Shown here: in pieces, positions 13,842 through 26,176 of the stretch
Layout of the letters: the number at the start of each line of letters is the position of its first letter
Position numbering within the stretch: position 1 is the first letter of the stretch
From: a virus
IMG/VR virus record: IMGVR_UViG_3300020160_001425
Location: 1 to 26,176 of that record
Length of the DNA: 26,176 nt
Reading direction: 5' to 3' (one strand)
Notes under the pieces: model-generated
The model's input: only the letters and a program-made list of their open reading frames with translations
Told to the model about the DNA's origin: nothing
The model's database searches: none
Translations under genes and position numbers: made by a program

Positions 13842-14308
13842 TGATGCTGAACCTGAAACAGAACGGAACCATCCTGTTTGCTGTTCCCGAAGGTGGCTGG
13901 GTGAACCTGCCGGACGGGCGGACGATCTCCCCGGCCGAGGACGGCTGGACGGACGGCGAATACACTCTTGAGCTGGTCCCGCCCGCGCCCGCGCCCACGC
14001 CTGAAGAGGCTCTGGCCGCCGAACGCGCCATGATGAAGCTGTCGTTCGCTCAGCTGATGATCGGCCTCGTCACTGAGCAGTGGATCACAGAGGCTGAGGG
14101 CGACGGCTGGCTGGCTGGCACGCTCCCCTTCGCCGTTCTGACGGTCATCGACAGCCTGCCCTTGGAGCAGCGCTTTGCGGCCAAGGCACGCGCTCTGCGC
14201 CCGTCTGAAGTGCTGCGCTCCGACCCGCTGGTGTCCGCAATGGGTGCCGCGTCTGGCAGGTCGGTGTACGAGATCGACGCCTTCTTCCGGACCTATGCTT
14301 TCGTATAG
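13841..14308 (+). CDS. small protein at end of tail module, possible fibre-assembly factor
   Basis: A 155-aa protein. The N-terminal 45 residues are beta-like (GTILFAVPEGGWVNLPDGRT), then a Pro/Ala hinge (PPAPAPAPTPEE) leads to a helical C-terminal domain (residues 60-155). A short domain, hinge and helical tail resembles proteins following phage fibre genes, some of which act in fibre assembly; function here is not proven. ATG 13841 gives a TGATG overlap, but ATG 13844 is better spaced from GGAG at 13834-13837, so either may be used. The 3' end overlaps the convergent leftward gene by 16 bp. Confidence 0.55.
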   Translation: MMLNLKQNGTILFAVPEGGWVNLPDGRTISPAEDGWTDGEYTLELVPPAPAPTPEEALAAERAMMKLSFAQLMIGLVTEQWITEAEGDGWLAGTLPFAVLTVIDSLPLEQRFAAKARALRPSEVLRSDPLVSAMGAASGRSVYEIDAFFRTYAFV

Positions 14309-14598
14309 CGTTTAGGATCGATCACAAGCAGATCGCCCACCCAGACCACTGGGTGGTTGTGCAGGCCGAACGGCACGGTGTCGACCATTTCCTTGGGGAT
14401 GTTGATGCGCCTCTTGTGCGCCCGAGAGCTGCACCGCCGGACAACGAACTCTCCACCCTCATCCATGAACTTGATGCCGATCCGGCCTCTGTTGTCCTTG
14501 TAGACCATGGCCGTCGCATCCCGGTCGATGATCTCGGCCGAGACGGTCACATAGGCGATCCTTGGGTTCTTGGGGCTCCGAGATACGCTCACACTCAC
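14293..14598 (-). CDS. hypothetical protein, last gene of leftward operon
   Basis: A 101-aa protein starting at GTG 14598, in a GTGA overlap with the gene before it in transcription. It is basic and predicted mostly beta, with RIAYVTVSAEIIDRDATAMV and a final VVWVGDLLVIDPKRY segment. No recognised domain, membrane segment or signal peptide. Its stop lies inside the convergent tail gene, so the two transcription units meet here. Confidence 0.55.
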   Translation of the reverse strand: MSVSVSRSPKNPRIAYVTVSAEIIDRDATAMVYKDNRGRIGIKFMDEGGEFVVRRCSSRAHKRRINIPKEMVDTVPFGLHNHPVVWVGDLLVIDPKRYTKA

Positions 14599-14831
14599 TT
14601 GTGGGTATCCATCTTGACCTTGCCGATATGCATCACGCTCAGCGCGATCCGGCCCATGCTGTAGTGGCTGCCGTCGGCGTTCCGGTAGAACTCCTCGACT
14701 GTGACAAAATCCACCCCCTCGGTAAGGCCAACGAACTCCTCCAAGGTCTTCGCCGGGTGCTCACAGATCACTTGGTGGATCAGCCCGCCGCTGCGGGACG
14801 GCATGTTCATCGTAATCAGAAATCTGCTCAT
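14595..14831 (-). CDS. hypothetical protein
   Basis: A 78-aa protein, ATG 14831 overlapping the preceding stop (ATGA). The N-terminus (MSRFLITMNMPSRSGG) reads as a beta strand and loop, with an acidic helix (AKTLEEFVGLTEG) and a beta C-terminus. No known family. The tight coupling on both sides argues it is translated as part of the operon. Confidence 0.55.
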   Translation of the reverse strand: MSRFLITMNMPSRSGGLIHQVICEHPAKTLEEFVGLTEGVDFVTVEEFYRNADGSHYSMGRIALSVMHIGKVKMDTHK

Positions 14832-15076
14832 TTTCCGTTCCTAAGATCGAACAGGCGTCTAGCCTCCATCTCGATGTACGGTCTGATCAGGTCCGGCACC
14901 CGAGACAGCGCTTTGCGCCTTGCGTCTTTCCCGTTTAGGGCAAGGATCGAGACAGCGCCATCGTAGATGTATTTGCGGCAGGCAGATTGTATGCCGGGCT
15001 CCTCATCCTCCATGCGGACCTGACCGCGCAGCACACGGCGTATCCGGCTGCTGGGGCGGGTCTCATCCGTCCACAT
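14828..15076 (-). CDS. hypothetical small basic protein
   Basis: An 82-aa protein. ATG 15076 gives a 14-bp overlap with the end of the VRR-NUC gene; the frame stays open upstream to 15223, but that extension lies within the nuclease gene and reads as low-complexity Ser/Pro/Arg, so it was not used. The product is rich in Arg and Asp/Glu and mostly helical (GIQSACRKYIYDGAVSILAL). No domain recognised. A start at a downstream Met (MEDEEPGIQ) is also possible. Confidence 0.5.
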   Translation of the reverse strand: MWTDETRPSSRIRRVLRGQVRMEDEEPGIQSACRKYIYDGAVSILALNGKDARRKALSRVPDLIRPYIEMEARRLFDLRNGK

Positions 15077-15476
15077 GGCTAGACCACTCCAGAAACGCGC
15101 CCCACGCAGCGTCACAGCCCAATGCGATGCAGGTGAAGCACCCGGCAGCCTGCGCCGCCCGCAGATACCCCAGCTGCTCGTCGGCGATGGTGGACTGGGT
15201 ATGGTCCCGCCGCTTGAGCTCACAGACGAACGCAGGAGCGCCGGGGATGACGATATCTGTCGCCCCGGTGGTCATGCCCTCGCTGCGCTCCTTGGCGGCC
15301 TGCAGGAGCGTTCTCTTGCCCTCGTTGCGGGGGTGGATCGCCAGAGCCCCGAAGGTGTCCGGAAACTGCCGCCTGAGGCGCGAGAAGAAGGTCACCTGCT
15401 CCAGCGTCTCCTTGGGACACGTCCCGCGATAGGACGTGTCGCCATAGATCGGAATGTCACTTGGGAGCTTCATCAT
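15063..15476 (-). CDS. VRR-NUC domain nuclease
   Basis: A 137-aa stand-alone VRR-NUC protein of the PD-(D/E)XK superfamily. Visible active-site elements are HPRNEG (residues 48-53), Asp74 in GATDIVI, Glu86 and Lys88 in CELKR, and a Gln-bearing helix (DEQLGYLRAAQAAG, residues 99-112). Phage members of this family act as structure-specific nucleases on branched DNA such as Holliday junctions. It overlaps the end of the helicase gene by 20 bp and probably works with it on replication or recombination intermediates. ATG 15476 or 15473 is preferred to an ATG at 15503 deeper in the helicase gene. Confidence 0.8.
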   Translation of the reverse strand: MMKLPSDIPIYGDTSYRGTCPKETLEQVTFFSRLRRQFPDTFGALAIHPRNEGKRTLLQAAKERSEGMTTGATDIVIPGAPAFVCELKRRDHTQSTIADEQLGYLRAAQAAGCFTCIALGCDAAWGAFLEWSSHVDG

Positions 15477-17244
15477 GCGGCCTGTTGTAAGCGTAAACCT
15501 CATAGAACCCGGTCTCAGCGTTCTTCTGATAGGTGACCGTGTCGGGTGCCTTGCCGCCCAGAGCGTCCAGTGCGGTGCGGGCCTGCTTGGCCTTGGACCA
15601 CGTCGGGAACTTCATCACCCAGAACGAGAATGACCTGTACGCGGTGGTCACGTCAACCCGATCCATGGGCTTGCCGCTCTTGGCGATCATGGGCTTCACT
15701 TCCCACTCCATGACCTGATCGGTCTGCATGCGGGTGGGGTCCTTCTTCATGGCCTTGAAGTCGGCTTTCAGCTTGTCGTTCGGATTGACGATCTCGCCCT
15801 TGCACTTGATGCAGTACCGGGCGGCGATGTCGTTGGGCTCCGTGCAGTGCGGACACTCCTTGGACGTCCAGCGGTAGGTGCACTGCACCAGATCGCCAGC
15901 CACGGTCTCCATGGCCCGGCAGCGGCGGCCGTAGTGCGCTGGCATCCAGCCCCACTCTGTCTCGATGGGCATGCCGTCCAGATCGAGGAAGTAGCCGTTG
16001 TCGTCGATCTCGTACCCGTCGAGGTTCGGCCGGGCGGAGAAGGTGTTCTGGACGCCACACTGGGGGCAATCGCAGTTGACCTCGGCCGCCTCTTCGCCGC
16101 CACCAAGCGACACCTTGATCTCGGGAGAGAACAGGTCGCCATCCGGGCAGTGCCGCTCGACGTTCTCGGCATAGTCCAGAACGAGGCAGTCGGACTTGCC
16201 GGGGTCGACGCGCAGCCCCCGGCCGATGATCTGCTGCATCAGGCCAACGCTTTCGGTGGCGCGCAGGATCGCGATGACATCGACGTGGGGTGCGTCGAAC
16301 CCGGTGGTCAGGACCGACACGTTGACCAGATACTTGATCTTGCGGGCCTTGAAGGCCTTCAGGATGCGATCCCGCTCGGCCTTCTTGGTCTCGCCCGTCA
16401 CGATGGCGGACATGCTGGGCGGCAGGCTCTCCAAGCACTCGTGGGCGTGCTTCACGGTGGCCGCGAAGATCATCACGCCATGGCGGTCGCGGGACTGCTC
16501 CACCACGTCGGCGATGATGGCGGAAGTCTTGCGGCCCTGCCCATGGTAGGCCCGGTCGATGTCGGCTGCGTCAAACTGGCCGCGCACGTTCAGGTGCATG
16601 TTCAGTGTTTCGTACGGATCAGCGTTGATCTCGCCGATGATGGGCTGGGTCAGGTATCCGGCCTCGATCAGCTCATAGGCCCGGATGCGGTGCACGCAGG
16701 CGGCGAAGTACGGGTCGCGCGTCTGGCTCTCCGACACGGGCTTGCCGTCCGGCCAGATGCCGAAGATGTACCCGGTCTTCATGCGGTACGGGGTGGCGGA
16801 CAGGCCGATCACGCGCAGGTTGGGGTTCTGCTCCCGCATCGCCTCGATAATCGCCTGAACGGTGGGCGTGATCCCATGGCACTCGTCGATCACGACGGCG
16901 GCAAACTGGCTGCCGAAGCGGCTTATCGCGTTCTTGACCGTGCCGGGCGTGCCGAACACCACCGGGTGCCGTAGGCTCTTCTGTCCGGCGCTGGCGCTGA
17001 AGATCGAGCACTTGGCCCCGGTCGCCTTGTACTTCTCGCTGTTCTGGACGACCAGTTCGGCCGACGGCGCGAGGCACAGGACGTGCTTGCCCTTCGACAC
17101 CTCGTGTACCGTGGCCGCCACCGCTTGGATGATGTGGCTCTTGCCACCCCCTGTGGCCGCCTCGATGCAGCACGGCGTCCGGTTCTTGGTGATCCAGCCT
17201 ATGATCGCGTCATGGGACAGCTGCTGGTATGGTCTCAGGGTCAT
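15457..17244 (-). CDS. superfamily 2 DNA helicase (DEAD/DEAH-like) with C-terminal zinc clusters
   Basis: A 595-aa SF2 helicase. Motifs: Q-like LRPYQQ (3-8), Walker A ATGGGKS (30-36), Ia LAPSAELV, motif II DECH (120-123), motif III SAT (149-151), and motif VI near residues 335-345 (QQIIGRGLRVD). After the helicase core are two cysteine clusters, CDCPQC (about 386) and CPHC...CIKC (about 460-480), likely zinc ribbons for DNA binding. The arrangement is that of phage UvsW-like or type III restriction-like helicases that remodel branched DNA. It lies between a PD-(D/E)XK-like nuclease (35-bp overlap) and the VRR-NUC gene (20-bp overlap), which suggests the three act together. Confidence 0.85.
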   Translation of the reverse strand: MTLRPYQQLSHDAIIGWITKNRTPCCIEAATGGGKSHIIQAVAATVHEVSKGKHVLCLAPSAELVVQNSEKYKATGAKCSIFSASAGQKSLRHPVVFGTPGTVKNAISRFGSQFAAVVIDECHGITPTVQAIIEAMREQNPNLRVIGLSATPYRMKTGYIFGIWPDGKPVSESQTRDPYFAACVHRIRAYELIEAGYLTQPIIGEINADPYETLNMHLNVRGQFDAADIDRAYHGQGRKTSAIIADVVEQSRDRHGVMIFAATVKHAHECLESLPPSMSAIVTGETKKAERDRILKAFKARKIKYLVNVSVLTTGFDAPHVDVIAILRATESVGLMQQIIGRGLRVDPGKSDCLVLDYAENVERHCPDGDLFSPEIKVSLGGGEEAAEVNCDCPQCGVQNTFSARPNLDGYEIDDNGYFLDLDGMPIETEWGWMPAHYGRRCRAMETVAGDLVQCTYRWTSKECPHCTEPNDIAARYCIKCKGEIVNPNDKLKADFKAMKKDPTRMQTDQVMEWEVKPMIAKSGKPMDRVDVTTAYRSFSFWVMKFPTWSKAKQARTALDALGGKAPDTVTYQKNAETGFYEVYAYNRPHDEAPK

Positions 17245-17683
17245 GTCGGATCACCTTAAATTTCTCGATTGGGAAGAGGACAACTTCGTCCCTGTCGTTC
17301 ACGTCGCGCACTTTGGTGAGGGTCTTGGTCTTAGCATCGAAATGGAAGGGCTTGTCCCACTTCACCTCAAAGTACAACATTGCGTTTGTGACTTCTACAA
17401 CAAAGTAAAAGTTGACCATCAGTTTTTTCGAGATAATCCGGGCCGACCTCGACTTCCCATAATCCAGCATGATGCTGCCCAGTTCCTGCATGCGCTCGTA
17501 GCTGTAGTTACCCCCTCTTGCCTTGCATTCACCGATGCCACAAAGAACCCCGTCCTTGTGCATGACGTAATCCATCGATGCACCCTTGGGTGTCTTTATG
17601 ATGTCGAAGCCCATAAATTCCGCGAACTCGATGCCGATGCGGCGCTCGTTTTCTTGATCCTCGGCGCTCTGATACATCCCCAT
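17210..17683 (-). CDS. putative PD-(D/E)XK-type nuclease
   Basis: A 157-aa protein. The likely active site is Asp38 (SMDYVM), then Glu52-Cys-Lys54 (GECKARG), the D-x(13)-E-x-K spacing of PD-(D/E)XK enzymes. A helix follows (YERMQELGSIMLDYG) and then beta strands. ATG 17683 is used because it sits two bases after the upstream stop; the frame is open further but runs into the previous gene. It is coupled to the SF2 helicase by a 35-bp overlap, resembling nuclease-helicase pairs in recombination. Its base composition is a little lower in GC than that of neighbours. The family assignment is by motif only. Confidence 0.6.
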   Translation of the reverse strand: MGMYQSAEDQENERRIGIEFAEFMGFDIIKTPKGASMDYVMHKDGVLCGIGECKARGGNYSYERMQELGSIMLDYGKSRSARIISKKLMVNFYFVVEVTNAMLYFEVKWDKPFHFDAKTKTLTKVRDVNDRDEVVLFPIEKFKVIRHDPETIPAAVP

Positions 17684-17684
17684 T

Positions 17685-17921
17685 TCAGCCCCCAATAATC
17701 CCCCGCAGCGCATTGGCGTAACCATCACCATGGTGGTTGTGCAATCTGCCCTTCTTGACTGGCGTCATGACATATGCGCTGCCGTCCTGAACGAGGTTGA
17801 CACTGTGATCCTCGCAGAGCTTGGCGCAGTACTCGACGGTGTCGCGGCGGCACTTTTCCAGTTGCCGCCGCAGCTTGATGTTGATGCCGATCTGGCGATC
17901 CAGCTGTTCCTGAAGGGTCAC
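17685..17921 (-). CDS. hypothetical protein with N-terminal helix
   Basis: A 78-aa protein starting at GTG 17921 in a GTGA overlap. Residues 1-40 form a charged helix, possibly a coiled coil (LDRQIGINIKLRRQLEKC), with Cys24, Cys32 and Cys36; the second half has two histidines in LHNHHGDGYA. The Cys and His residues could bind a metal, but no known zinc motif fits. No family recognised. Confidence 0.5.
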   Translation of the reverse strand: MTLQEQLDRQIGINIKLRRQLEKCRRDTVEYCAKLCEDHSVNLVQDGSAYVMTPVKKGRLHNHHGDGYANALRGIIGG

Positions 17922-18412
17922 TTCTTGAACTCAGCGCCGGGGTGGGACAGGATGTAATCGATGTGAACAGGCTCAAACGCGTTGGCATCGACGCCCACGT
18001 TGAACCTGCGGACCCCGGACATGAACACCCTGCTGTGGGTGTGGCAGTGCAGGTGGATCGACCCCTTGTAGAAGTTGTTCCACTCCTCGATGGGGTAGTG
18101 GAAGAGGACAAGCTTCCTGCCCTTTTTCTCCACCTCGATGTACTCCGCCGGGCCCCACTTATCGTGGTTGCCACGGACGTGAATGATCACCCCGTTCAGC
18201 CTGCGTCTGATCCTTGCGATCTCATCATCCTTCATGTGCCAGAAGAAGAAGTCGCCCAGATGGAAGACCTCGTCTTTCGGGCCCACGACGTGGTTCCAGT
18301 TGGTGATCAGGCGTTCGTTCATCTCTTCGACGTCGTGGAACGGCCTGTTGCAGAGCTTGATGATGTTGGCGTGGCCGAAGTGCGTGCAGCCAGTGAAAAA
18401 CGTCTCGCTCAT
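17918..18412 (-). CDS. calcineurin-like metallophosphoesterase with altered first metal motif
   Basis: A 164-aa phosphoesterase of the compact phage/YfcE-like type. Motifs: I, GCTHFGH (residues 8-14); II, HLGDFFFW; III, RGNHDK; IV, LFHYPIEEW; V, HLHCHTHS. The family normally reads D-x-H in motif I; here the Asp is Cys9 (codon TGC on the minus strand), while His11 and all other metal ligands remain. Members hydrolyse phosphodiesters or phosphomonoesters with two metal ions. ATG 18412 overlaps the exonuclease stop (ATGA). Placed within a recombination operon it may trim DNA or RNA ends or clear a cyclic nucleotide; the substrate is unknown. Confidence 0.75.
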   Translation of the reverse strand: MSETFFTGCTHFGHANIIKLCNRPFHDVEEMNERLITNWNHVVGPKDEVFHLGDFFFWHMKDDEIARIRRRLNGVIIHVRGNHDKWGPAEYIEVEKKGRKLVLFHYPIEEWNNFYKGSIHLHCHTHSRVFMSGVRRFNVGVDANAFEPVHIDYILSHPGAEFKK

Positions 18413-19281
18413 TTCAGCCCCCAGAAGCTGGAGGGCTTGCCGCGCCACGGTTCGAGGTTCGCGCCGGGGGCCAGCACCTTGATGGCCTGAGCGTAGGAGA
18501 TGGAGCCCTTCTTTTCGGTCTTGGTCAGCTTGCGGCCGCCGAAGATGGCGTTCCTGCCCTTGGACATCTCGACCATCTTTTCCAGAAGCTCCTTCTTGCG
18601 ATCCTCTGCCTTGGCGATGGCATCGATCACGTCGTTGTACTCGGCCACCATCTGCAGAGCGCGAGGCGTGTCGATGATGACGCGTGCCTCCTCCAGATAG
18701 TCGTCCGGCTCGTCGCAGGCGGCCAGAAACTCCATGTAGAACTCGCGGAGCTTGGGCAGCGTTTCGGCGATGAACTGGGGGTCATAATCGACCACGATCA
18801 GCTTGGCGTCCCTCGGGGTCCACTGCCAGAAGTAGCACTTTGACCGACCAGCGCAGAGCATCTGGACCTGCATCTGGGCGTGGTAATGCGGCTGATCCTC
18901 GACCGACTTGAACTCGACCGGGGGCTCATCGGCGCGCAGGCCAAACGGGCACTTGATCTCCACGTTGAAGTCATCGCCGACGTACCCATCCGGGCTTGCG
19001 CCCAGCCAATTCATCTCCGGGTGGACGACGAACGTCGCCGGGGTGATGACCTGACCGAGATGCGCCTGCAGGTCTTCCACGGCCTCCATCTCGTGGGTGA
19101 TGCCCCACTGGGTGGCGATGTTGCCGTCCCACTCGCTGGGTGCCCCATGGTACTGCCTGACCATGCGGCGCATGATCTCGGCACGTTTGAGGTTGGGGTC
19201 GATGTCGAGGATCGCGCCGACAGCCGATCCGGTCACGCGTCCCTTGCGGGCGGTGAACCACTCTTCACTGCGCTGCTCCAT
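18409..19281 (-). CDS. YqaJ-like viral recombinase exonuclease
   Basis: A 290-aa nuclease of the lambda-exonuclease/YqaJ family. Start region EQRSEEWFTARKGRVTGS is typical. Active-site elements: Glu64 in GITHEMEA, Asp98 in LGASPDGYV, and Glu108/Lys110 in VEIKCP. A DQPHYHAQMQVQML helix follows, as in the family. The C-terminal 90 residues are helical (AIAKAEDRKKELLEKM...). It would digest one strand of double-stranded ends to make ssDNA for annealing. ATG 19281 is used (TGATG overlap with the 32-aa gene). It works logically with the SSB-like and Sak4-like products upstream in the same operon. Confidence 0.85.
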   Translation of the reverse strand: MEQRSEEWFTARKGRVTGSAVGAILDIDPNLKRAEIMRRMVRQYHGAPSEWDGNIATQWGITHEMEAVEDLQAHLGQVITPATFVVHPEMNWLGASPDGYVGDDFNVEIKCPFGLRADEPPVEFKSVEDQPHYHAQMQVQMLCAGRSKCYFWQWTPRDAKLIVVDYDPQFIAETLPKLREFYMEFLAACDEPDDYLEEARVIIDTPRALQMVAEYNDVIDAIAKAEDRKKELLEKMVEMSKGRNAIFGGRKLTKTEKKGSISYAQAIKVLAPGANLEPWRGKPSSFWGLK

Positions 19282-19379
19282 CAAAAATACCCGTTGGCCT
19301 GAGAGCACTGGGACATCAGAGCCACGCAGATAACGATGGTGGCGCAGATGATGAGCATCGTACGGTGTTCATTGGTCAT
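19281..19379 (-). CDS. 32-aa single-span membrane microprotein
   Basis: A short gene coding for MTNEHRTMLIICATIVICVA and 12 more residues, the first half forming one hydrophobic span (about residues 8-23) and the C-terminus polar (QCSQANGYF). AGGA lies about eight bases before ATG 19379, and its TGA overlaps the ATG of the exonuclease gene (TGATG), so it is probably translated and coupled. Cys12, Cys18 and Cys25 are notable in so short a chain. It has no recognised family; a membrane-tethering or regulatory peptide is possible, but it could also serve mainly to couple translation. Confidence 0.5.
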   Translation of the reverse strand: MTNEHRTMLIICATIVICVALMSQCSQANGYF

Positions 19380-19402
19380 ATCGATAATCCTAAGGGGCTG
19401 GT

Positions 19403-19424
19403 GGGGCCGCCCGAAGGCGACCCC
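19403..19424. other. UUCG-loop hairpin downstream of ssb-like gene
   Basis: GGGGCCGCC (19403-19411), CGAA (19412-19415), GGCGACCCC (19416-19424). In the leftward mRNA this folds as a nine-pair stem with one G-U pair closed by a UUCG tetraloop, nine bases past the SSB-like stop. On that strand no U-run follows. On the plus strand the stem is followed by GGTTTT, so it looks like a terminator for antisense (rightward) transcription. It may also protect the 3' end of the sak4-ssb message. Confidence 0.55.
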
Positions 19425-19432
19425 GGTTTTCA

Positions 19433-20056
19433 TCAGAACGGGATTTCGTCGTCCATGCTGCGGCTGCCGCCACCGCCCATGCCGCCACCGCTGGTGCTCG
19501 AAACGTGCTTTTCGAGAGCGGCCTGCGCCTTGGCGATATCCTCGGCCGAGGTCTGCGGCGCGGTCTTGGGGGACACAGCGCCGATCCAGTTGCCACGGGC
19601 CATGTCGCCAGTCGCCCGGTCGCGCATCTCCCAGATCATGACCTTGACCACCATGGGCTTGTTGGTCAGGCACGAGGTCAGGCTCTCATCGGTCGGGGCA
19701 ACGCCCTTGGCCATCAGTTTGCCGCCGCAGTTGGTGTCGATGGCACCCAGCATCTTCTTGGCCTTGTCGCGCTTCGCAGCCACCTTGTCGGCTTTGGCGC
19801 GCGGGTCGGCATCGGACACCCAGAGCTTCTGGAAAACCTTGCGGTTGTTGTAGTCTTCCGGAGCCAGAACGTTCCACCGCAGCGAGATGAAGCGGTTGCC
19901 GTCCTGATCCTTGTCCCACTTGGCCTCGTCGATGGCCGCCAGAACGGAGGTCTCGGCCGGGATCGGCAGGAGGTTACCACCACCCGCGTCAAACTCGCCC
20001 GAGCTTGCGGTTTCTTTGACGTCTTCGCCGTCAGACAGGTTCCAAAAATCGCTCAT
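19433..20056 (-). CDS. phage ssDNA-binding protein (SSB-like, acidic DDEIPF tail)
   Basis: A 207-aa protein overlapping the Sak4-like gene by ATGA. The N-terminal two-thirds has a beta-rich core (residues 30-150, with NRFISLRWNVLAPEDYNNRK and VVKVMIWEMRD strands) suitable for an OB fold of the DUF669/DUF2815 type. A flexible Gly/Ser linker (GGGMGGGGSR) leads to the terminal DDEIPF, nearly the same as the DDDIPF tip of bacterial SSB that recruits partner proteins. Role: coat ssDNA produced by the exonuclease or replication fork and recruit helicase, nuclease and Sak4-like partners. The OB fold itself is inferred. Confidence 0.75.
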   Translation of the reverse strand: MSDFWNLSDGEDVKETASSGEFDAGGGNLLPIPAETSVLAAIDEAKWDKDQDGNRFISLRWNVLAPEDYNNRKVFQKLWVSDADPRAKADKVAAKRDKAKKMLGAIDTNCGGKLMAKGVAPTDESLTSCLTNKPMVVKVMIWEMRDRATGDMARGNWIGAVSPKTAPQTSAEDIAKAQAALEKHVSSTSGGGMGGGGSRSMDDEIPF

Positions 20057-20823
20057 TTCCCAGCTTCCTTGTTTGCGGGCTTCGACATGTATTGGGCAAA
20101 GGGGTTCTCGCCCATCTTGACTTCCAGCGGTTCGCTGATGCCGAAGCGGTTCTTCGACACGTTCGCCGCCATGGCGTGGACAACCAGCTGGCGCGTGCCG
20201 TCCGAGATCGCCTTCTTGAGGTCACCGTCGCCAGTGACGAACGTCTCCAGCCGGAGGAAACCCACCGCGTCCACGTTGTCGATGTACGGCTGGGTCGACT
20301 TCTCGGCCATCCGCATCGCGTACTTCGTGTAGGGGTTGGCATCCGGCGGCTCGATCCGAACCGTTTCAGCATGCGCGACGAACACGATGTTCATCCCACG
20401 GTCCATCATCAGGCCACAGGCCTTGCGGACCCGGCGATGCTGGCTGGCGACCATGTCACGCCCGGCACCGAAGCCACCGTGCGCTTGGTTCAGGCTCTTC
20501 GCGCCCTTGGGGTCCGTATCCAGCACCCAGTCGGTGAACAGGCTGTCCAGCGTGGTGACGGTGTCGATGACACACGTCTGGTAGGGGTGGTCTTCCTTGA
20601 CCAGCGCGGCCAGCTGGGGCCACAGATCATCGGCGTTCCGGAGCACGGGAAATGCATCGGGACGGCGATCCACCGGGACGGCCTGAAGGCCATCTTCGGA
20701 ACGGATAAAGATCGGTTTCGGGAAGGTTGCGGCAAGGCTTGTCTTGCCAAGGCCAGCATCACCAATGATCGTAATGGCGATGGGCCTGTCAGTCGGTTTG
20801 GTGACAGTATCGAGAATACTCAT
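20053..20823 (-). CDS. Sak4-like RecA-fold ATPase (AAA_24-type)
   Basis: A 256-aa P-loop ATPase. Walker A is GDAGLGKT (residues 21-28), Walker B is TCVIDTVT with Asp87, and NIVFVAHAE near residue 155 resembles the sensor strand. Phage proteins of this class (AAA_24 or Sak4) are remote RecA homologues; Sak4 of phage HK620 anneals single strands and is stimulated by its cognate SSB. The next gene here is an SSB-like protein, overlapping by four bases, matching that partnership. ATG 20823 is supported by GAGGAG upstream; an upstream in-frame start at 20850 would overlap the promoter. It is first in the leftward operon. Confidence 0.75.
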   Translation of the reverse strand: MSILDTVTKPTDRPIAITIIGDAGLGKTSLAATFPKPIFIRSEDGLQAVPVDRRPDAFPVLRNADDLWPQLAALVKEDHPYQTCVIDTVTTLDSLFTDWVLDTDPKGAKSLNQAHGGFGAGRDMVASQHRRVRKACGLMMDRGMNIVFVAHAETVRIEPPDANPYTKYAMRMAEKSTQPYIDNVDAVGFLRLETFVTGDGDLKKAISDGTRQLVVHAMAANVSKNRFGISEPLEVKMGENPFAQYMSKPANKEAGK

Positions 20824-20849
20824 CTTCGCTCCTCTTCTTCTCAACAGCA

Positions 20850-20878
20850 TTGACGTTACGGTGACGTTGTGAGAATGT
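20850..20878 (+). promoter_or_regulatory. candidate rightward early promoter
   Basis: On the plus strand, TTGACG (20850-20855), 17-bp spacer, GAATGT (20873-20878), a good -35 with a weak -10. It lies on top of the leftward promoter in opposite orientation. TGACGTT occurs twice (20851-20857 and 20862-20868), 11 bp apart, about one helical turn, which could be a regulator site. Confidence 0.35.
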
Positions 20879-20881
20879 CAA
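20853..20881 (-). promoter_or_regulatory. candidate leftward early promoter
   Basis: On the minus strand, TTGACA (20881-20876), 17-bp spacer, TAACGT (20858-20853). The -35 is a perfect sigma-70-type match and the -10 matches three of six. Initiation near 20846 would leave a leader of about 23 bases holding GAGGAG before the Sak4-like ATG at 20823. Confidence 0.5.
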
Positions 20882-20912
20882 CACATGAAACGTGACCGAG
20901 GGAACAACAACA

Positions 20913-21149
20913 ATGTCGCAAAGTAACATAGGCTCCATCGAAGAGGCGGCAGACGTCCTGCAAAAAGCCATCGAGGGTGAGCTCTCGCGCATCCGTCTGG
21001 CGCTTGCTGACCGCACCCTGTCGAAGGTCGCTCAGGCCACCGGGCTCCATGAGAACACGGTGCGTAACATCGCGAAGGCCCACGGCAGCACGCCGACCGT
21101 GGAGACCATTGCCAAGCTGTCCCAGTACCTGTTCACGCAGACCGCCTGA
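20913..21149 (+). CDS. small helix-turn-helix DNA-binding protein
   Basis: A 78-aa protein. Residues 28-70 read as a lambda-repressor-like helix-turn-helix: TLSKVAQATGLHENTVRNIA holds the two helices, then a third (TVETIAKLSQYLF). The N-terminal helix (EEAADVLQKAIEGELSRIRL) is acidic. GAGGGA (20898-20903) precedes ATG 20913; an in-frame GTG at 20892 would place the ribosome site inside the coding region. It is the first rightward gene next to two divergent promoter candidates and directly before the primase gene. It may be the early-region regulator or an origin-binding protein; the sequence does not settle which. Confidence 0.65.
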   Translation: MSQSNIGSIEEAADVLQKAIEGELSRIRLALADRTLSKVAQATGLHENTVRNIAKAHGSTPTVETIAKLSQYLFTQTA

Positions 21150-21156
21150 CACAGAC

Positions 21157-23451
21157 ATGGATTACAGGATTTTTTGGGAGGCCGGATTTCAAGTCTTCGG
21201 CCTGTACGGTCGTGGGCCGGACGGAAAATGTGCGTGCGGCAATCCGCATTGCCCTGAGAAGTCGCTGTTCAAGCACCCACGGGTGTCGAACTGGCAGCAC
21301 ACGCCTCACTGGTCGGAAGAGCAGCTGGAGACCATGGAGCTCATGGGCCAGTTCAAGACCGGGTACGGCGTCCTGCTGAGAACGGTTCTGGTCATCGACG
21401 TGGATGCGCGGAACGGCGGCATCGCCAGTCTCGCGAAGCTTCTGGAAGACTTCCCCGAGATCGCGTCGGCCGGGCTGATCGTCAACACGGGCTCCGGCGG
21501 CGGATCGAAGCACTATTTCTTCCGCGTGCCGGAAGGCACCTCGCTGCTGATCAAGCTGGAGAAGTATCCCGGCATCGACTTCAAGTCCGGCGCTGCCTTC
21601 GTGGTGGGGCCCGGCTCCATGCATGCCAGTGGCAACCGCTACGAGATCGCGATTGGCTCCCCGGAAGACATCGATGATGCCCCGGCGGCCCTGATCGAGG
21701 CGCTGCGGGTGCCCGAGAAGCACCGGGCGGATATCGGCGGCCGGACGGTGGACGTGTCCCACGGCGATCTGGCGGACATGCTGGCGCATATCCCGAACGA
21801 TGATCTGGACTATGACCAGTGGATCAAGATCGGCATGGCCCTTCACCATGCCTCTGGCGGGTCGGCCTATGCGGTCTGGGACACATGGTCGCAGAAGTCG
21901 AAGAAGTACGACGAGACGTCGATGCCGTACAAGTGGCACAGCTTCGGGCGGTCGGCCAACCCGGTCACGCTGGGCACGCTGGCCCACTATGCAGAGCAGA
22001 ACGGCTGGACCCAGCCCGTGACGTTCGTGCCGGATGTCGAGTTCGATTTTACACCGTACGAAGCAAAAGACAGCATCGACATCGACACGGCTGGCGTTGA
22101 CCTCCTGCGGCCGCCGGGCCTCGCCGGGCAGATCGCCACATGGATCGAAAGCCGGACCCGCCGGAAGCGCGAACAGCTGGCGTCCATGGCGGCCATCGTG
22201 GCCATCGGAAACATCTGCGGCCTGCGCTACATCGACGACCTCGACCGCTCCACCACCAACCTGTTCGTCTTCAATGTCGCGGGCTCCGGCACGGGCAAGG
22301 AGGCGGTGCAGGACTGCATCAGGGAGATCATGGTCGTCTGCGGCATGGCTGAGGCTGTCCACGGCACCATCAAGTCCGAACAGGAAGTCATGCGGAACCT
22401 GCTGAGGCACCAGCCCGCGTTCTTCCTGATCGACGAGATCGGCTTCCTGCTGCAGAAGATCAAGTCGGCCCAGAAGCGCGGCGGTGCCACCTATCTGGAG
22501 GGCATCATCGGCATCCTGATGTCGGCCTATTCCAAGGCTGACGGCAACATGATCCTGAGCGGTGACGCCAAGGACGAGATCAAGGCTGAGCTCCGCAAGG
22601 AACTGGTCAAGATCGACAAGCAGCTGGATGAGCTTGGCGAGAAGCCCTACCTGATCAAGCGCAAGGCCAGCGTGGAGTACCAGCTGCGGACCATCGGTCA
22701 GGGCCTGCCCCGGCCGTTCCTGTCGCTGTCCGGATACACCACCCCGGAGAACTTTGACGAGCTGGTGGACTATCAGAGCGCGGCCAACGGGTTTATCGCC
22801 CGGTCGATCCTCTGCATCGAGACCGATACCGCGCCGGAGACCAAAGACGACTGGATCAAGCAAGACCTGCCGGAGAGCCTGAAGATCACGCTGCAGCAGC
22901 TGTCCATGGGTGGCTCGTTCGACATGGTCGAGACCTTCGACGCCCGCGTGGAGTACTATGGCGATAAGATCGTCGTCCCGACCGCGCCGAAGGCCAAGGA
23001 CATGCTGCGCCGGGCCCGTAAGCTGTTCGACAAGATGGCGTACGAGCACAAGACCCTGTCCGGCCTTGAGGCGCTGCCGAACCGGGGCTACGAGCAGGTC
23101 AGCAAGGTCAGCCTGATCCTCGCCATCCCCGAGGGCGTCCGCACCGAGGAGCACGTCCGCTGGGCCTATGCTCTGGTGAAGCGGGACATCGAGAGCAAGA
23201 TGCACCTCGTGACAGGGAACGAGCGCGCCGTGGACAACCCGGCAATGGCCCTTCGGTCTAAGATCAGGCAGCTGCTGATCGGGCCGGAAGGCGAGACGCT
23301 GGGCGTGATCGTGAACCGTTTGCGGAAATACAAGCGGGAAGACATCGAGAAGTGCTTGGCCAAAATGGAGGAGGGCAACCTGATCACCTCCGAGGAAGAC
23401 ATCCACAAGTTCAACAAGAAACCCATCAAAAGGTTCAAGATAAAAGAGTGA
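21157..23451 (+). CDS. bifunctional primase-polymerase / helicase (Prim-Pol, PriCT-like, DUF3987-like)
   Basis: A 764-aa replication protein. Residues 1-190 are an archaeo-eukaryotic-type Prim-Pol domain: Asp81 and Asp83 (VIDVDARNGG), His119 (GGGSKHYFF), and VVGPGSMHASGNRYE (149-163). A Cys-rich loop lies near the N-terminus (CACGNPHC). Residues 200-285 resemble PriCT (YDQWIKIGMALHHASGG...). The C-terminal part is a DUF3987-like P-loop helicase: Walker A GSGTGK (376-381), Walker B FFLIDE with Asp426/Glu427. It should both prime and unwind phage DNA. ATG 21157 is chosen; it lies seven bases after the helix-turn-helix stop with no strong ribosome site, so translational coupling is likely. Confidence 0.85.
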   Translation: MDYRIFWEAGFQVFGLYGRGPDGKCACGNPHCPEKSLFKHPRVSNWQHTPHWSEEQLETMELMGQFKTGYGVLLRTVLVIDVDARNGGIASLAKLLEDFPEIASAGLIVNTGSGGGSKHYFFRVPEGTSLLIKLEKYPGIDFKSGAAFVVGPGSMHASGNRYEIAIGSPEDIDDAPAALIEALRVPEKHRADIGGRTVDVSHGDLADMLAHIPNDDLDYDQWIKIGMALHHASGGSAYAVWDTWSQKSKKYDETSMPYKWHSFGRSANPVTLGTLAHYAEQNGWTQPVTFVPDVEFDFTPYEAKDSIDIDTAGVDLLRPPGLAGQIATWIESRTRRKREQLASMAAIVAIGNICGLRYIDDLDRSTTNLFVFNVAGSGTGKEAVQDCIREIMVVCGMAEAVHGTIKSEQEVMRNLLRHQPAFFLIDEIGFLLQKIKSAQKRGGATYLEGIIGILMSAYSKADGNMILSGDAKDEIKAELRKELVKIDKQLDELGEKPYLIKRKASVEYQLRTIGQGLPRPFLSLSGYTTPENFDELVDYQSAANGFIARSILCIETDTAPETKDDWIKQDLPESLKITLQQLSMGGSFDMVETFDARVEYYGDKIVVPTAPKAKDMLRRARKLFDKMAYEHKTLSGLEALPNRGYEQVSKVSLILAIPEGVRTEEHVRWAYALVKRDIESKMHLVTGNERAVDNPAMALRSKIRQLLIGPEGETLGVIVNRLRKYKREDIEKCLAKMEEGNLITSEEDIHKFNKKPIKRFKIKE

Positions 23452-23481
23452 TTGACGTCGTACTAACATCGGTGATATGAG
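23452..23481 (+). promoter_or_regulatory. candidate promoter with leader hairpin (copy 1)
   Basis: TTGACG (23452-23457) begins right after the primase stop codon; TATGAG (23476-23481) follows with an 18-bp gap. Transcription would start near 23488, a few bases before the hairpin at 23492-23506. The same layout recurs upstream of the gene at 25820. Confidence 0.5.
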
Positions 23482-23491
23482 TTTTCTCACA

Positions 23492-23506
23492 GGGGCAAGG
23501 TGCCCC
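23492..23506 (+). promoter_or_regulatory. 5'-leader hairpin GGGGCA-AGG-TGCCCC
   Basis: A six-pair GC-rich stem with a three-base loop between the promoter candidate and the ribosome site GGAG (23511-23514). No T-run follows, so it is not a terminator. It probably lies at the very 5' end of the message. Confidence 0.6.
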
Positions 23507-23520
23507 GCTTGGAGATCAAG

Positions 23521-24108
23521 ATGACCCACAATGCAGAAGAAACCCGTCGCTCGATCAAGCTGTTCGCTGAAGAGCACCCGGACATGTGGAAGGACCTATG
23601 CGCCGCCAGCAACGAGTTCACCGCGTCACTGCATGCGTCCCTGCACCGCTGGGGCACCCTGACCCAGAACCAGATCAACGCGTGGTATCGCGGCTGGGAA
23701 AAGCGTCAGGCAGCAGTCTCCAAGGGCGGTGAGGCTGACCTGTCGCGCATCCGCGAGATGTTCGACACCGCCACCGCCAGCGGGTTCAAGAAGCCATGCT
23801 ACCGGGCCGAGGGCCTGAAGATCACCTTGGCCCCGGCGACCGGGCGCAACGCTGGTGCCCTGTACGTCGTGCAGATCGACTTCGAGGTCTATCAGGGCAA
23901 GGTCGAGGGCACCACGTTCAAGGCTGTCTATGGGGCTGGCAATGACACTCTGAGACGCCTGCAGATCATCGCTGCCAACCCGATGGAAGCAGCGGTGCGC
24001 TACGGCCGCCAGACCGGGCGCTGCTCGTGCTGCGGCCGGGAACTTACCAACAAGGTGAGCATCGACGCCGGGATCGGCCCGATCTGCGCGCAGAAGTGGG
24101 GGCTGTGA
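23521..24108 (+). CDS. DUF6011 zinc-binding protein
   Basis: A 195-aa protein. The C-terminal motif CSCCGRELTNKVSIDAGIGP followed by ICAQKWG is the DUF6011 signature, with cysteines that likely bind zinc. The N-terminal half is helical (EETRRSIKLFAEEHP, WYRGWEKRQAAVSK) and a beta-rich middle has LYVVQIDFEVYQG. DUF6011 occurs in many phage early proteins; its role is unknown but DNA or RNA binding is commonly assumed. ATG 23521 is chosen for GGAG six bases upstream; the frame is open to 23500 inside the leader hairpin. It has its own promoter candidate. Confidence 0.75.
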   Translation: MTHNAEETRRSIKLFAEEHPDMWKDLCAASNEFTASLHASLHRWGTLTQNQINAWYRGWEKRQAAVSKGGEADLSRIREMFDTATASGFKKPCYRAEGLKITLAPATGRNAGALYVVQIDFEVYQGKVEGTTFKAVYGAGNDTLRRLQIIAANPMEAAVRYGRQTGRCSCCGRELTNKVSIDAGIGPICAQKWGL

Positions 24109-25079
24109 TGGGGGATGTTCTGGCATCCATCCGCCACCTTCACGATCCCGGTCGGAGCGTTGATGAATGCTCCGATCTTTTTAAGGATTTTGTTTCCGGA
24201 TATTTTGGCCAAATCAATTTTGCAATTTACGTTTATTTTGACGACAGCATAGGGGCTATCCTTACAAAGAAATGTGGAAAAATTACAAAAGGAAATATGG
24301 AGGCTTTTTGGAAAAAGCTGGGGTACGAACGCATGGAGCGTTTTGAGTTAACGGTGAGTGGAAACGGAGTTGCTATCGCAATAAAGCCAGATGAGGTTAA
24401 GGATATGATTATAGCTAAACCAAAAGGGACAGACCGTGGTCCTGTTGCTGAAGTCAAATGTGACTGCTGCGGGTTCACGGAGAATGTCAGGGCGGACTAT
24501 GAACGGCTGTCCGCAGACAAGTACAAGTTGAATGAGGGTCAGGTGCTTGTGAAGGCCACCAAGAAGGGGTGGTCCAGCATCAAGGGAACCCTGCGCTGCC
24601 CAGAATGCGAAACGAAGCGCCGCGAAGAGGCGAAACCCCAGAAGGAAATTACAGTGAAAAACGTCGTGAACCTGCCCGTGACCGAAGAGCCCCGCCAGCC
24701 CAGCCGGGAACAGAAGCGCCAGATCGTTGCCCTCCTGACCGACGTCTATGACATCGCGTCCAACCGCTACACCGGGGGTGAGACCGACAAGACGGTCGCT
24801 GATGCCATCGGCAACGGTGTCCTGTTCGGCTGGGTGGCGCAGATCAGGGAAGACCTGTTTGGGCCCGACGGCGGCAACGAGGAAATCGTCCGGCTGGAGG
24901 TTGACGTGAAGGCGCATTCTGATGCGATCAGCGCCCTGACCCGCGACATGGCCGCATGTAGTAAGCTGATCGCTGACGGTCAGGACACCCTCTCCACCCT
25001 GCGTGCCAACCAGTCCGACCTTCAGCGCCGCATCGACGCCCTGAAGGCGTCTGTCGGCCCGCGCGCCCGAAACGTGTGA
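24108..25079 (+). CDS. mosaic zinc-ribbon protein, function unknown
   Basis: A 323-aa protein joined to the DUF6011 gene by TGATG. Three sections: (1) residues about 1-110, Phe/Tyr/Lys/Ile-rich, with AT-rich coding DNA; (2) residues 115-170, a zinc ribbon with Cys118/Cys121 and Cys164/Cys167; (3) residues 190-323, a segment with the pattern LLTDVYDIASNRYTGGETD and W...REDLFGPDGGNEE, then a coiled-coil-like tail (ALTRDMAACSKLIADG). Sections 2 and 3 look like separate phage proteins fused together. No enzyme motif is visible. The sharp composition change within the gene suggests recombination. Confidence 0.6.
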   Translation: MGDVLASIRHLHDPGRSVDECSDLFKDFVSGYFGQINFAIYVYFDDSIGAILTKKCGKITKGNMEAFWKKLGYERMERFELTVSGNGVAIAIKPDEVKDMIIAKPKGTDRGPVAEVKCDCCGFTENVRADYERLSADKYKLNEGQVLVKATKKGWSSIKGTLRCPECETKRREEAKPQKEITVKNVVNLPVTEEPRQPSREQKRQIVALLTDVYDIASNRYTGGETDKTVADAIGNGVLFGWVAQIREDLFGPDGGNEEIVRLEVDVKAHSDAISALTRDMAACSKLIADGQDTLSTLRANQSDLQRRIDALKASVGPRARNV

Positions 25080-25083
25080 CGCC

Positions 25084-25452
25084 ATGACCGTCAAGAAGTG
25101 CCGTATCGACGGGTGCCGTGAGCCAGCGGTGGGGGGGTACATGCCCTTCCGCTGCGCCCAACACAAGGCAGACCGCATCCGTAGGCAGAAGGCCAGCCAA
25201 CAGAGCAACCACCTGCGAACCCTGCCCAGCGGGGCCAAATGCCCTGAATGCGGCACCCCACTGAACGAGGTCCCATTCGGCGACTGTGTCGCGCACCGGG
25301 TTTGGACCATGTGTTCGAGCGAAGAGATCGCACGACGCACTGAAGAGCGCGACGTGGTGCAGCGGGCCACCGCCGACCGGGCTGTGGCGCTGCTGGAGGC
25401 CCTTCGCGACGTCTACGGTATCGATCTTCTCTCGAAGGGGGACAGGACATGA
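25084..25452 (+). CDS. small cysteine-rich (zinc finger-like) protein
   Basis: A 122-aa protein with two Cys/His sets: Cys6, Cys11, Cys24 and His27 (CRIDGCREP, FRCAQH), and CPEC with later His and Cys residues (CVAHRVWTMC). It ends with a helical tail. It probably binds zinc; function unknown. A run of seven G at 25131-25137 lies in the frame. It follows the previous gene after four bases and overlaps the next by ATGA. Confidence 0.6.
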   Translation: MTVKKCRIDGCREPAVGGYMPFRCAQHKADRIRRQKASQQSNHLRTLPSGAKCPECGTPLNEVPFGDCVAHRVWTMCSSEEIARRTEERDVVQRATADRAVALLEALRDVYGIDLLSKGDRT

Positions 25453-25724
25453 CCACCAGAACAAAAGAAGAGGCGTTTGACCTGTTTGAAGCTCACCGTG
25501 CAGAGTGGCTTGCCGCCGCCCGCAACTTTCTTAACAGGCAGCCCATCGGGTCAAAAATGACAGTAAACGATGTGCGCTCCGCTGTACCGCTGCCGGGCGG
25601 CATAGATGGCCGTGTCATGGGTTCTGTATTCAGGGGTCAGCCTTGGAAGATGGTTGCCTACAAACCCTCCGCCCGGAAAACTTGCCACAAACGTCCTATT
25701 GCGGTGTTCGAGAGGGTGGGGTGA
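25449..25724 (+). CDS. hypothetical protein, possible winged-helix
   Basis: A 91-aa protein. The pattern AHRAEWLAAARNFL, then IGSKMTVNDVRSAVPLPG, then VMGSVFRGQPWKMV suggests three helices and a beta wing, similar to small phage winged-helix proteins; this is inference. It ends with a basic stretch containing CHKRPI. ATG 25449 overlaps the previous stop (ATGA). Confidence 0.5.
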   Translation: MTTRTKEEAFDLFEAHRAEWLAAARNFLNRQPIGSKMTVNDVRSAVPLPGGIDGRVMGSVFRGQPWKMVAYKPSARKTCHKRPIAVFERVG

Positions 25725-25748
25725 GGCGAAAAAATAAGGTCTATGATG

Positions 25749-25777
25749 TTGACAATGCCACTGGACGAATGTAGAAC
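25749..25777 (+). promoter_or_regulatory. candidate promoter with leader hairpin (copy 2)
   Basis: TTGACA (25749-25754), 17-bp spacer, TAGAAC (25772-25777): perfect -35, four of six at -10. It lies in the 95-bp gap after the 91-aa gene. The predicted start near 25784 is just before a GGGGC/GCCCC hairpin. Confidence 0.6.
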
Positions 25778-25786
25778 TTCACACAT

Positions 25787-25801
25787 GGGGCATGTCGCCC
25801 C
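25787..25801 (+). promoter_or_regulatory. 5'-leader hairpin GGGGC-ATGTC-GCCCC
   Basis: A five-pair stem with a five-base loop, followed by GGGAG (25808-25812) and ATG 25820. Same order and spacing as the leader at 23492-23506; no T-run follows. Confidence 0.6.
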
Positions 25802-25819
25802 GCAGCTGGGAGAGCTGAT

Positions 25820-26176
25820 ATGGAACTGGAAATCGAGAACCTCGAACGCGCCCTGACCGACAAGGGCTACACGCAGCCGAACGTCTGGCTGGGCATCAAG
25901 TGGATCGGGAACTTCTGCTTCAACATCACCGCCTACAACCCGAAGGCCGTTGTGACCAACCAGACGATCACCCGCCTCTGCAAGGGCGACACCTTCGAAG
26001 AGGCTCTGGCCCGCGCGAAGGATGAGATCGAAAAGCTGCCCGATCCGGCTGTCGAGCTCAAGGAGCAGTTCCTGAAGGACCTCGCCAAGATGATCGACCG
26101 AGGCAACGAGCTCGGGGTCACCGTCAACCCGCTCACCGAGATGATGAAGAAGCTCTCGAAAAACGTGATCACGAAA
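25820..26176 (+). CDS. hypothetical protein, 3' end beyond the window
   Basis: Open from ATG 25820 (GGGAG at 25808-25812) to the window edge, 119 codons with no stop. It begins MELEIENLERALTDKGYT, has a beta middle (WLGIKWIGNFCFNI), then a helical acidic and Lys-rich part (EEALARAKDEIEKLP, EQFLKDLAKMID). No family recognised. It has its own promoter and leader hairpin, so it may start a further early operon. Confidence 0.65.
   Translation, partial: MELEIENLERALTDKGYTQPNVWLGIKWIGNFCFNITAYNPKAVVTNQTITRLCKGDTFEEALARAKDEIEKLPDPAVELKEQFLKDLAKMIDRGNELGVTVNPLTEMMKKLSKNVITK

Follow-up and report, generated by a model that had tools for sequence, protein, structure and literature searches.

A putative start-associated leader hairpin in a phage record, its relatives, and other phages

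The window examined here is a virus record of 26,176 bases (IMG/VR IMGVR_UViG_3300020160_001425, positions 1 to 26,176), in which 2 short leaders share a promoter, a GC-rich hairpin, an SD sequence, and an ATG (Table 1). Copy 1 is located directly behind a primase-polymerase gene (PF09250, PF08707) and precedes a gene for a DUF6011 protein, while copy 2 precedes a gene for which no Pfam or PHROG family was identified at E ≤ 0.01. By inference only, the product of a small HTH_3 gene next to the primase gene is a candidate regulator of the 2 promoters. It was also noted that GC content drops to 40% to 46% at positions 24150-24524, close to where the 24108-25079 reading frame begins, against about 60% to 65% around it, with a terminator-like stem at 24150-24177; this low-GC part is perhaps an insertion or a fused gene.

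Table 1. Coordinates of the leaders and associated genes in the window
Feature	Position	Strand	Description
Small HTH_3 regulator	20913..21149	+	Adjoins primase; Pfam/PHROG search
Promoter of copy 1	23452..23481	+	-35 TTGACG 23452-23457, 18-base spacer, weak -10 TATGAG 23476-23481
Leader hairpin, copy 1	23492..23506	+	GGGGCA-AGG-UGCCCC, 3′ end 14 nt before ATG
Second small stem, copy 1	23508..23520	+	CUUG-GAGAU-CAAG, most of SD in loop; predicted fold
SD and start codon, copy 1	GGAG 23511-23514, ATG 23521	+	
Gene behind copy 1	23521..24108	+	DUF6011 protein (PF19474, phrog_4046), 195 aa
Promoter of copy 2	25749..25777	+	-35 TTGACA 25749-25754, 17-base spacer, -10 TAGAAC 25772-25777
Leader hairpin, copy 2	25787..25801	+	GGGGC-AUGUC-GCCCC, 5-bp stem, 5-nt loop, 3′ end 18 nt before ATG
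Second stem, copy 2	25803..25817	+	CAGCU-GGGAG-AGCUG, SD in loop; predicted fold
Start codon, copy 2	ATG 25820	+	Copy 2 is 2.3 kb downstream of copy 1
Gene behind copy 2	25820..26176	+	119 codons, runs off record

A search of the window with the pattern TTGAC-N30-36-GGGGC-N3-6-GCCCC gave exactly 2 matches, 23452-23506 and 25749-25801, both on the plus strand, compared with a mean of 0.01 in 100 shuffles of the window, none of which reached 2. These are the 2 sites reported in the first-pass annotation, whose description of copy 1 as a TTGACG promoter followed by a GGGGCA/TGCCCC hairpin and a GGAG site is thereby borne out. The similar layout that it placed downstream was also recovered, except that the six-pair form of the stem is confined to copy 1. 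A looser layout (TTGAC, any GC-rich 5-bp stem, SD, and ATG) again identified only the leaders at 23452 and 25749, with a mean of 0.045 and a maximum of 1 in 200 Markov resamples of the window. Neither leader promoter was listed in a sigma-70 scan of the window that required at least 9 of 12 consensus bases, and the weak TATGAG was the best-scoring -10 candidate at copy 1; support for the copy 1 promoter instead comes from the conservation of TTGAC after the primase gene in 30 of 34 relatives, as described below. Intrinsic terminators were rejected as an explanation, as neither hairpin was among the 9 terminator-like sites of positions 13000-26176, and the stems are followed by GC and an SD with no T run. 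In both leaders, the second stem starts one base past the first hairpin; that of copy 1 is identical in the 84% relatives and hence shows no covariation.

The window primase matched 88 stretches in IMG/VR, 80 of which were kept, and we read the bases 3′ of the primase gene in 34 of these 80 relatives and in the window (fetched stretches, or loci, carry L-numbers and whole records G-numbers). A TTGAC was present within about 40 bases of the primase end in 30 of the 34 relatives, the exceptions being L011, L014, L032, and L033, and the promoter position is therefore old. The hairpin was found only in the window and in 8 of the relatives read (L003-L008, L026, and L035); on this comparison, it is younger than its promoter position. 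The stem is GGGGC/GCCCC in the window and GTGGC/GCCAC in the 8 relatives, where the hairpin reads GUGGC-ACAGC-GCCAC and the sixth, inner pair of copy 1 is lost (A-U to A.C), whereas the next 17 bases (GCTTGGAGATCAAGATG) are identical. This is the cleanest pairing-preserving change in the data set because orthology fixes the site.

Other structures were observed just after the primase gene in other relatives. In L025 and L031, the predicted fold places the SD of the post-primase gene inside a small stem instead. The inverted repeats GGGATAACC-N8-GGTTATCCC in L027, L028, and L030 and GATAACCC-N6-GGGTTATC in L012 and L038 overlap the post-primase -10 and are likely repressor operators. Among named records, a single 62% relative of the primase was found, in MW202675.1; a model of the leader, R1, had no match at E ≤ 10 in 18 kb of this record (L083).

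Model R1 was built from 35 leaders, and sites used in building it match by construction, including the copy 2 hairpin (23.4 bits). A scan of 18 whole records at E ≤ 0.01 identified 2 sites in the window, 7 each in G001, G002, and G003, 6 in G013 (L172), 4 in G011 (L091), 3 in G012 (L144), 2 each in G696, G697, G698, G699, G700, and G005, 1 each in G701 and G702, and 1 weak site in a Stenotrophomonas phage; in both G698 and G699 one match duplicates another on the opposite strand, and one of the matches in G002 is weak (18.6 bits). Close relatives of the window thus contain further copies near small genes, up to 7 per record, and the absence of further copies, which the first-pass annotation would have counted against its reading, was not observed. 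In G001 (63,799 bases), the orientation-neutral pattern GGGGC-N5-GCCCC occurs at 5 places, all within 9044-11415, and in the L008 list all 5 are on one strand and precede an SD and an ATG. Sites not used for R1 include GGGCC-GCGGU-GGCCC behind a TTGACA promoter (G700:958), GGGCC-GUUGU-GGCCC 19 nt before an ATG by manual reading (G013:27259), a UUCG-type stem (G012:4264), and GGGGC-AGGGU-GCCCC behind the spacer GGGGGCGTTTGCCCC, with a possible TTG and no ATG at the usual place (G697:12269).

In 74 further primase-family sources, R1 matched only L035 and L027 at E < 0.01, and the element is therefore not common in the wider clade. A genome-wide pattern search yielded 29 stretches, which by a rough estimate is near chance in a collection of 257 billion bases, and these served only to reach further genomes and to view host leaders. 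A blastn search of the leaders against named phages gave, among the matches listed, short matches with E 0.08 to 7 and no record covering a leader, and R1 had no match in the whole records of Rhodobacter phage RcMrWorf and Roseobacter phage RDJL Phi 1.

To compare gene content, 21 window proteins and 376 ORFs from the window, L008, L007, and L003 were used in tblastn searches of the fetched stretches of 5 to 14 kb. Locus L098 was a clear relative of the window group, whereas L146, L171, L172, L164, L168, and L166 had nothing in common with it at E ≤ 1e-5. Between these extremes, L091 and L144 had one small protein in common with the group (about 45% identity), L165 the DUF6011 protein, L169 one protein (37%), and L173 a 22% primase match. 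Phages with at most one or two proteins in common with the window group, in the stretches compared, contained one to six copies, and by this comparison the leader layout occurs in several distant phage lineages. We also noted that 3 of the 5 leader hairpins in L172 (G013:17008-19642) follow a GGGACCG...CGGTCCC stem and TTT, so that the small genes are punctuated by a recurring series of terminator-like stem, leader hairpin, and SD.

In an alignment of 32 hairpins (28 distinct), 95.2% of the cells were paired, and double-sided changes were observed in 22 cells compared with 6.4 after shuffling, with none of 500 shuffles reaching 22. A single pair accounts for 13 of the 22 double changes (12 are G-C to C-G), and much of the covariation mixes rows fetched with 2 patterns fixing GGGGC or GGGCC. 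Stems that were not fixed by a pattern, listed by scripts that did demand pairing, are GTGGC (8 relatives), CCCGC (L098), GGGAC (L144), GGCCC (L173), GCGCC and TGGCC (L172), and the GGGCC copies of L091, and a single phage, L172, has 3 different stems. With the caveat of pattern seeding, base pairing is thus conserved in the element. The predicted folds keep the leader stem in 33 of 36 leaders folded, the minimum-energy fold being another one in L008:15327, L003:13246, and L172:1387. A second hairpin with the SD in its loop was clear in the window leaders and the relatives of copy 1, but not in most of the 36, and was rejected as part of the element.

These changes bear on whether the leaders were merely duplicated by recombination along with small genes, the hairpin itself being functionless. 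Long identical stretches among the L006/L008 copies and among the L172 copies would fit such a history, but the stem changes preserve pairing both at the orthologous site and in distant lineages, the positional anchoring is kept with non-identical flanks, and a similar geometry is seen at rpmJ in a bacterial family (see below), all of which makes this explanation improbable.

At about 15 nt in length, the hairpin usually has the form N5-ANRGU-N5′. Its 3′ end is located 13 to 24 nt before the ATG in 42 listed sites, mostly 17 to 22 nt, with orthologous copies counted apart, scripts that required an SD and an ATG within about 45 nt, and collection patterns that allowed about 9 to 31 nt. At L091:2709 the second ATG (20 nt, not 15) was preferred, since the first opens a two-codon frame. 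Most of the 42 sites have a TTGAC-type or TTG-type -35, and the -10 ends about 7 to 13 nt before the hairpin. By manual reading, about 10 of the 42 lack a convincing promoter: L008:15715, L008:16880 (one weak candidate), L007:16170, L003:13587, L098:13684, L091:3747, L091:3990, L172:294, L172:1033, and L172:1387; the first L172 copy, cut short in the promoter listing, has a TTGACA/TATAAG promoter further upstream. These sites and the narrow spacing from the ATG tie the hairpin to the start codon and not only to the mRNA 5′ end. The first-pass annotation had called it a 5′-terminal stem, but the sites lacking a convincing promoter indicate that it is not merely a 5′ cap.

The same sites weigh against the view that GGGGC-N5-GCCCC is a DNA operator, bound by a repressor or another DNA-binding protein at the transcription start. 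Phage repressor sites are often near +1, and the element is palindromic DNA near the expected +1 in most promoter-bearing copies. However, a DNA operator sits poorly with the sites that have no clear promoter, the asymmetric loop, the narrow distance to the ATG, and the different half-sites within one genome (L172, L144, L098, L091, and L008), and we give it little credence. Palindromes are instead found inside the promoters of the relatives: the mean score of operator-like palindromes in 26 promoters was 4.43 compared with 3.46 (sd 0.17), and they differ between phages. In some sister promoters they lie between or around the -35 and -10. A perfect palindrome, ATGTCCAGTTGGACAT, lies between the -35 and -10 in two promoters of L007 (14776-14801 and 15823-15848), and is unlike the CATCGTACGATG type of related phages. 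The small regulon proposed for the window thus finds a fit in relatives, where palindromes are common to some sister promoters, but is unproven for the window's own 2 promoters because neither has a significant palindrome (p 0.45 and 0.80).

The association with start codons was quantified by counting GC-rich hairpins of at least 5 bp upstream of ORF starts having an SD, in comparison with shuffles. In the window group, comprising 6 loci of which 2 (L090 and L098) were fetched by the hairpin pattern, a hairpin ended at 17 to 22 nt in 15 of 147 starts, compared with 2.1 in shuffles (maximum 5), and at 12 to 16 nt in 7 of 147, compared with 1.5. In loci chosen by the hairpin, the counts at 17 to 22 nt were 11 of 73 starts for the L091 group (1.4 shuffled) and 5 of 16 for L172/L173 (0.5 shuffled). 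The 54% to 66% primase relatives, which were not chosen by the hairpin, had 10 of 485 starts at 17 to 22 nt (7.0 shuffled) and 21 of 485 at 23 to 28 nt (6.5 shuffled, maximum 12); part of the latter signal is more likely an operator, the inverted repeat GGGATAACC...GGTTATCCC and its kin overlapping the -10. The more distant primase relatives had 5 of 350 starts at 17 to 22 nt (3.1 shuffled). No excess at this distance was found in the first 50 kb each of RcMrWorf (0 of 45 starts) and RDJL Phi 1 (1 of 81), which had 4 of 45 at 29 to 34 nt and 6 of 81 at 41 to 45 nt, respectively, compared with 0.8 and 1.0 shuffled.

The loop of the phage hairpins is mostly ANRGU, that is an A-U closed triloop NRG, which is partly owed to the search patterns. 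It is more conserved than a stem alone needs, which counts against a plain stem and leaves room for a specific factor. The hairpin could be a sequence-specific RNA operator, in which a phage or host factor reads the ANRGU loop and switches the translation of a gene set, much as coat proteins and CsrA switch translation via other hairpins. Among 14 further copies in the pattern-fetched records that were not fetched by the seeds, 12 have the triloop NGG or NAG on differing stems (4 in L172, 3 in L091, and 1 each in L173, L144, L098, G700, and G697), the exceptions being GUUGU (G013:27259) and a UUCG-type loop (L144). Unseeded hairpins with a 5-nt loop before an SD and an ATG in the pattern-fetched loci carried ANRGT in 8 cases and its reverse complement in 2. 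Both reverse-complement cases are true copies read on the opposite strand, and a chance origin seems likely for one of the 8 (L163); the same script, with seed hairpins left out, gave 0 versus 0 in the primase loci. The loop is also common to phages with few or no proteins in common.

Several observations make such an operator doubtful. The loops vary within the window group (AUGUC, ACAGC, GCGAU, AAGAC, and GCGYUGGA), the rpmJ and rpmF hairpins described below carry other loops, and some of the L172 copies have common flanks and are probably recent duplicates. An orientation control scan gave 30 stretches with the forward loop and 14 with the reverse loop, but at least 12 of the 30 come from the lineages already described, which leaves 18 versus 14. 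The 14 loci fetched with the reverse loop as a control also had a hairpin at 17 to 22 nt in 17 of 158 starts compared with 2.7 shuffled, partly by construction. The phage loop CANGGUG resembles the CsrA site CANGGAUG, but lacks the A of GGA, the usual loop being NGG followed by U. No csrA gene was found in 12 phage records, which is not decisive for a phage that could use a host protein; with no GGA in the loop and no csrA in these records, a CsrA/RsmA site was rejected.

Matches to R1 were also obtained in bacterial genomes, in 13 of 295 genomes of the Frigidibacter albus family and in 5 of 385 of the class at E ≤ 2e-4 (E-values rough), among others in the leaders of rpmJ (3 matches), rpmF, ndk, and aroB, with names read from translations. 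Frigidibacter is assigned to the Rhodobacterales, Paracoccaceae, in NCBI. We examined the best 30 loci for each of rpmJ and rpmF, from 40 genomes of this family with a match in each search, allowing hairpins at 8 to 27 nt before the ATG. A hairpin was found in 23 of 30 rpmJ leaders compared with 2.9 in shuffles (maximum 9 of 200), ending 15 to 25 nt before the ATG, and in 11 of 30 rpmF leaders compared with 1.6 (maximum 6), ending at 18 to 22 nt. Across the class, 4 of 29 rpmJ leaders had a hairpin compared with 1.4 shuffled (maximum 5), in a sample drawn from the 30 best of 54 matches, with one dropped because it had been used before, and open to family members; one of the 4 (L274) has the stem of the Frigidibacter family. 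Other ORFs of at least 100 codons in the rpmJ and rpmF loci had a hairpin at 17 to 22 nt in 2 of 106 cases compared with 3.3 expected, and a general host rule was rejected on this ground.

In loci L213-L242, the SD of rpmJ (bL36) is often preceded by a GGCGC/GCGCC hairpin, which in turn often follows a terminator-like stem, and 13 of 14 rpmJ loci tested for RNAs also hold a tRNA gene close by. Searches against Rfam gave only tRNAs in 20 rpmJ/rpmF loci, with no family covering the leader hairpin, and no matches above the gathering score in 7 phage sources. The window primase was not found at E ≤ 1e-100 in the 295 genomes of the Frigidibacter family, in a search that had no positive control, and assigning the window phage to a Rhodobacterales host would be a guess.

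What can be read directly from the sequences is the layout, its repetition, the narrow distance to the ATG, the stem variation with pairing preserved, and the presence with and without a clear promoter. A structural leader element is in our view the best reading because the place of the stem is kept across genes and distant phages, with and without a promoter, and at rpmJ and rpmF with other loops. We infer that the hairpin acts as RNA, and its recurrence in distant phages and in bacterial ribosomal-protein leaders probably reflects a real tuning of how messages are kept or read. More specifically, we propose with moderate confidence that the 2 sites in the window are members of a family of start-anchored leader hairpins that shield the mRNA and keep the ribosome site open. 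A GC-rich stem-loop of 5 to 6 bp, with its 3′ end 13 to 24 nt (mostly 17 to 22 nt) upstream of the start and just 5′ of the SD, would be located approximately at the upstream edge of the 30S ribosome. There it could protect against decay that depends on the 5′ end (through RppH, RNase E, or RNase J) and prevent pairing between upstream RNA and the SD without hindering the ribosome, and behind a promoter it would also cap the 5′ end of the transcript. Phages may thereby obtain higher and more uniform expression of small accessory genes, using the geometry that one Rhodobacterales family would use for rpmJ and rpmF.

A more speculative extension, which we put forward tentatively, is that a host factor, either an RNA-binding protein or the ribosome, recognizes the ANRGU hairpins. 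They would then serve as a translational signal anchored at the start codon, acquired or converged on by distant phages and mirrored in the host at rpmJ and rpmF of one Rhodobacterales family, and would mark messages for preferred translation or survival. What began as an odd single leader has in either case become a testable family, a 15-nt RNA element with a narrow geometry, changing stems, and a preferred loop. If the stem alone suffices, it would offer a small genetic part that can be moved between constructs to give steady expression in alphaproteobacteria, and if the loop matters, an RNA-binding factor awaits discovery.

Literature searches of open-licence PMC papers identified no paper whose title or abstract start describes such a leader hairpin. 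The element was compared with systems that resemble it in part. The rpmJ and rpmF leaders have a GC-rich 5-bp hairpin 15 to 25 nt before the ATG, in rpmJ often followed by GCGA, but differ in their stems (mostly GGCGC in rpmJ and GGGGN/GGGCN in rpmF) and in their varied loops, mostly not ANRGU. Protection from decay by a 5′ hairpin, as had been suggested for the window leaders, is plausible by analogy with other bacteria; exceptions named in a review include the rpsO mRNA and a T7-transcribed lacZ mRNA, which are not stabilized by a sequestered 5′ end (PMC3997798). The leader hairpin resembles the mRNA-stabilizing 5′-terminal stem-loops of the ompA and papA type, work on which is in the reference list of that review, in placing a GC-rich stem before the SD of a short leader and close to its 5′ end (PMC3997798), this closeness being expected here from the -35/-10 spacing. 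Unlike them, it is also found between genes without a clear promoter, keeps a narrow distance to the ATG, and is repeated within one genome.

The nearest phage signals known to us are the SAS and ESAS repeats of cluster K mycobacteriophages. According to the papers describing them, these are short repeats outside the structural genes, mostly in one direction and tied to start codons, and about half have an upstream inverted repeat, read by later work as a promoter, their function being unknown (PMC3203893, PMC11373665, PMC12699233). The SAS is given there as a 13-mer, GGGATAGGAGCCC, that contains AGGAG and is located 3 to 7 or 3 to 9 bp from the start, and RNA pairing within the ESAS repeats was judged by the authors to be poorly supported (PMC3203893, PMC11373665, PMC12699233). 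The leader hairpin is likewise repeated, start-associated, and partly accompanied by a promoter and an inverted repeat, with an outer GGG...CCC in both, but it is located 13 to 24 nt from the ATG, the SD lies outside it, and its stems vary while pairing is kept. A search of the window for GGGATAGGAGCCC with up to 2 mismatches gave 2 matches (10561 and 10930), both with 2 mismatches and neither at the leaders, a number within chance given 0.78 expected. Membership in the SAS as described is thus ruled out by sequence and distance, although the layout is similar, and the leader hairpin would be an RNA-level parallel to these unexplained mycobacteriophage signals.
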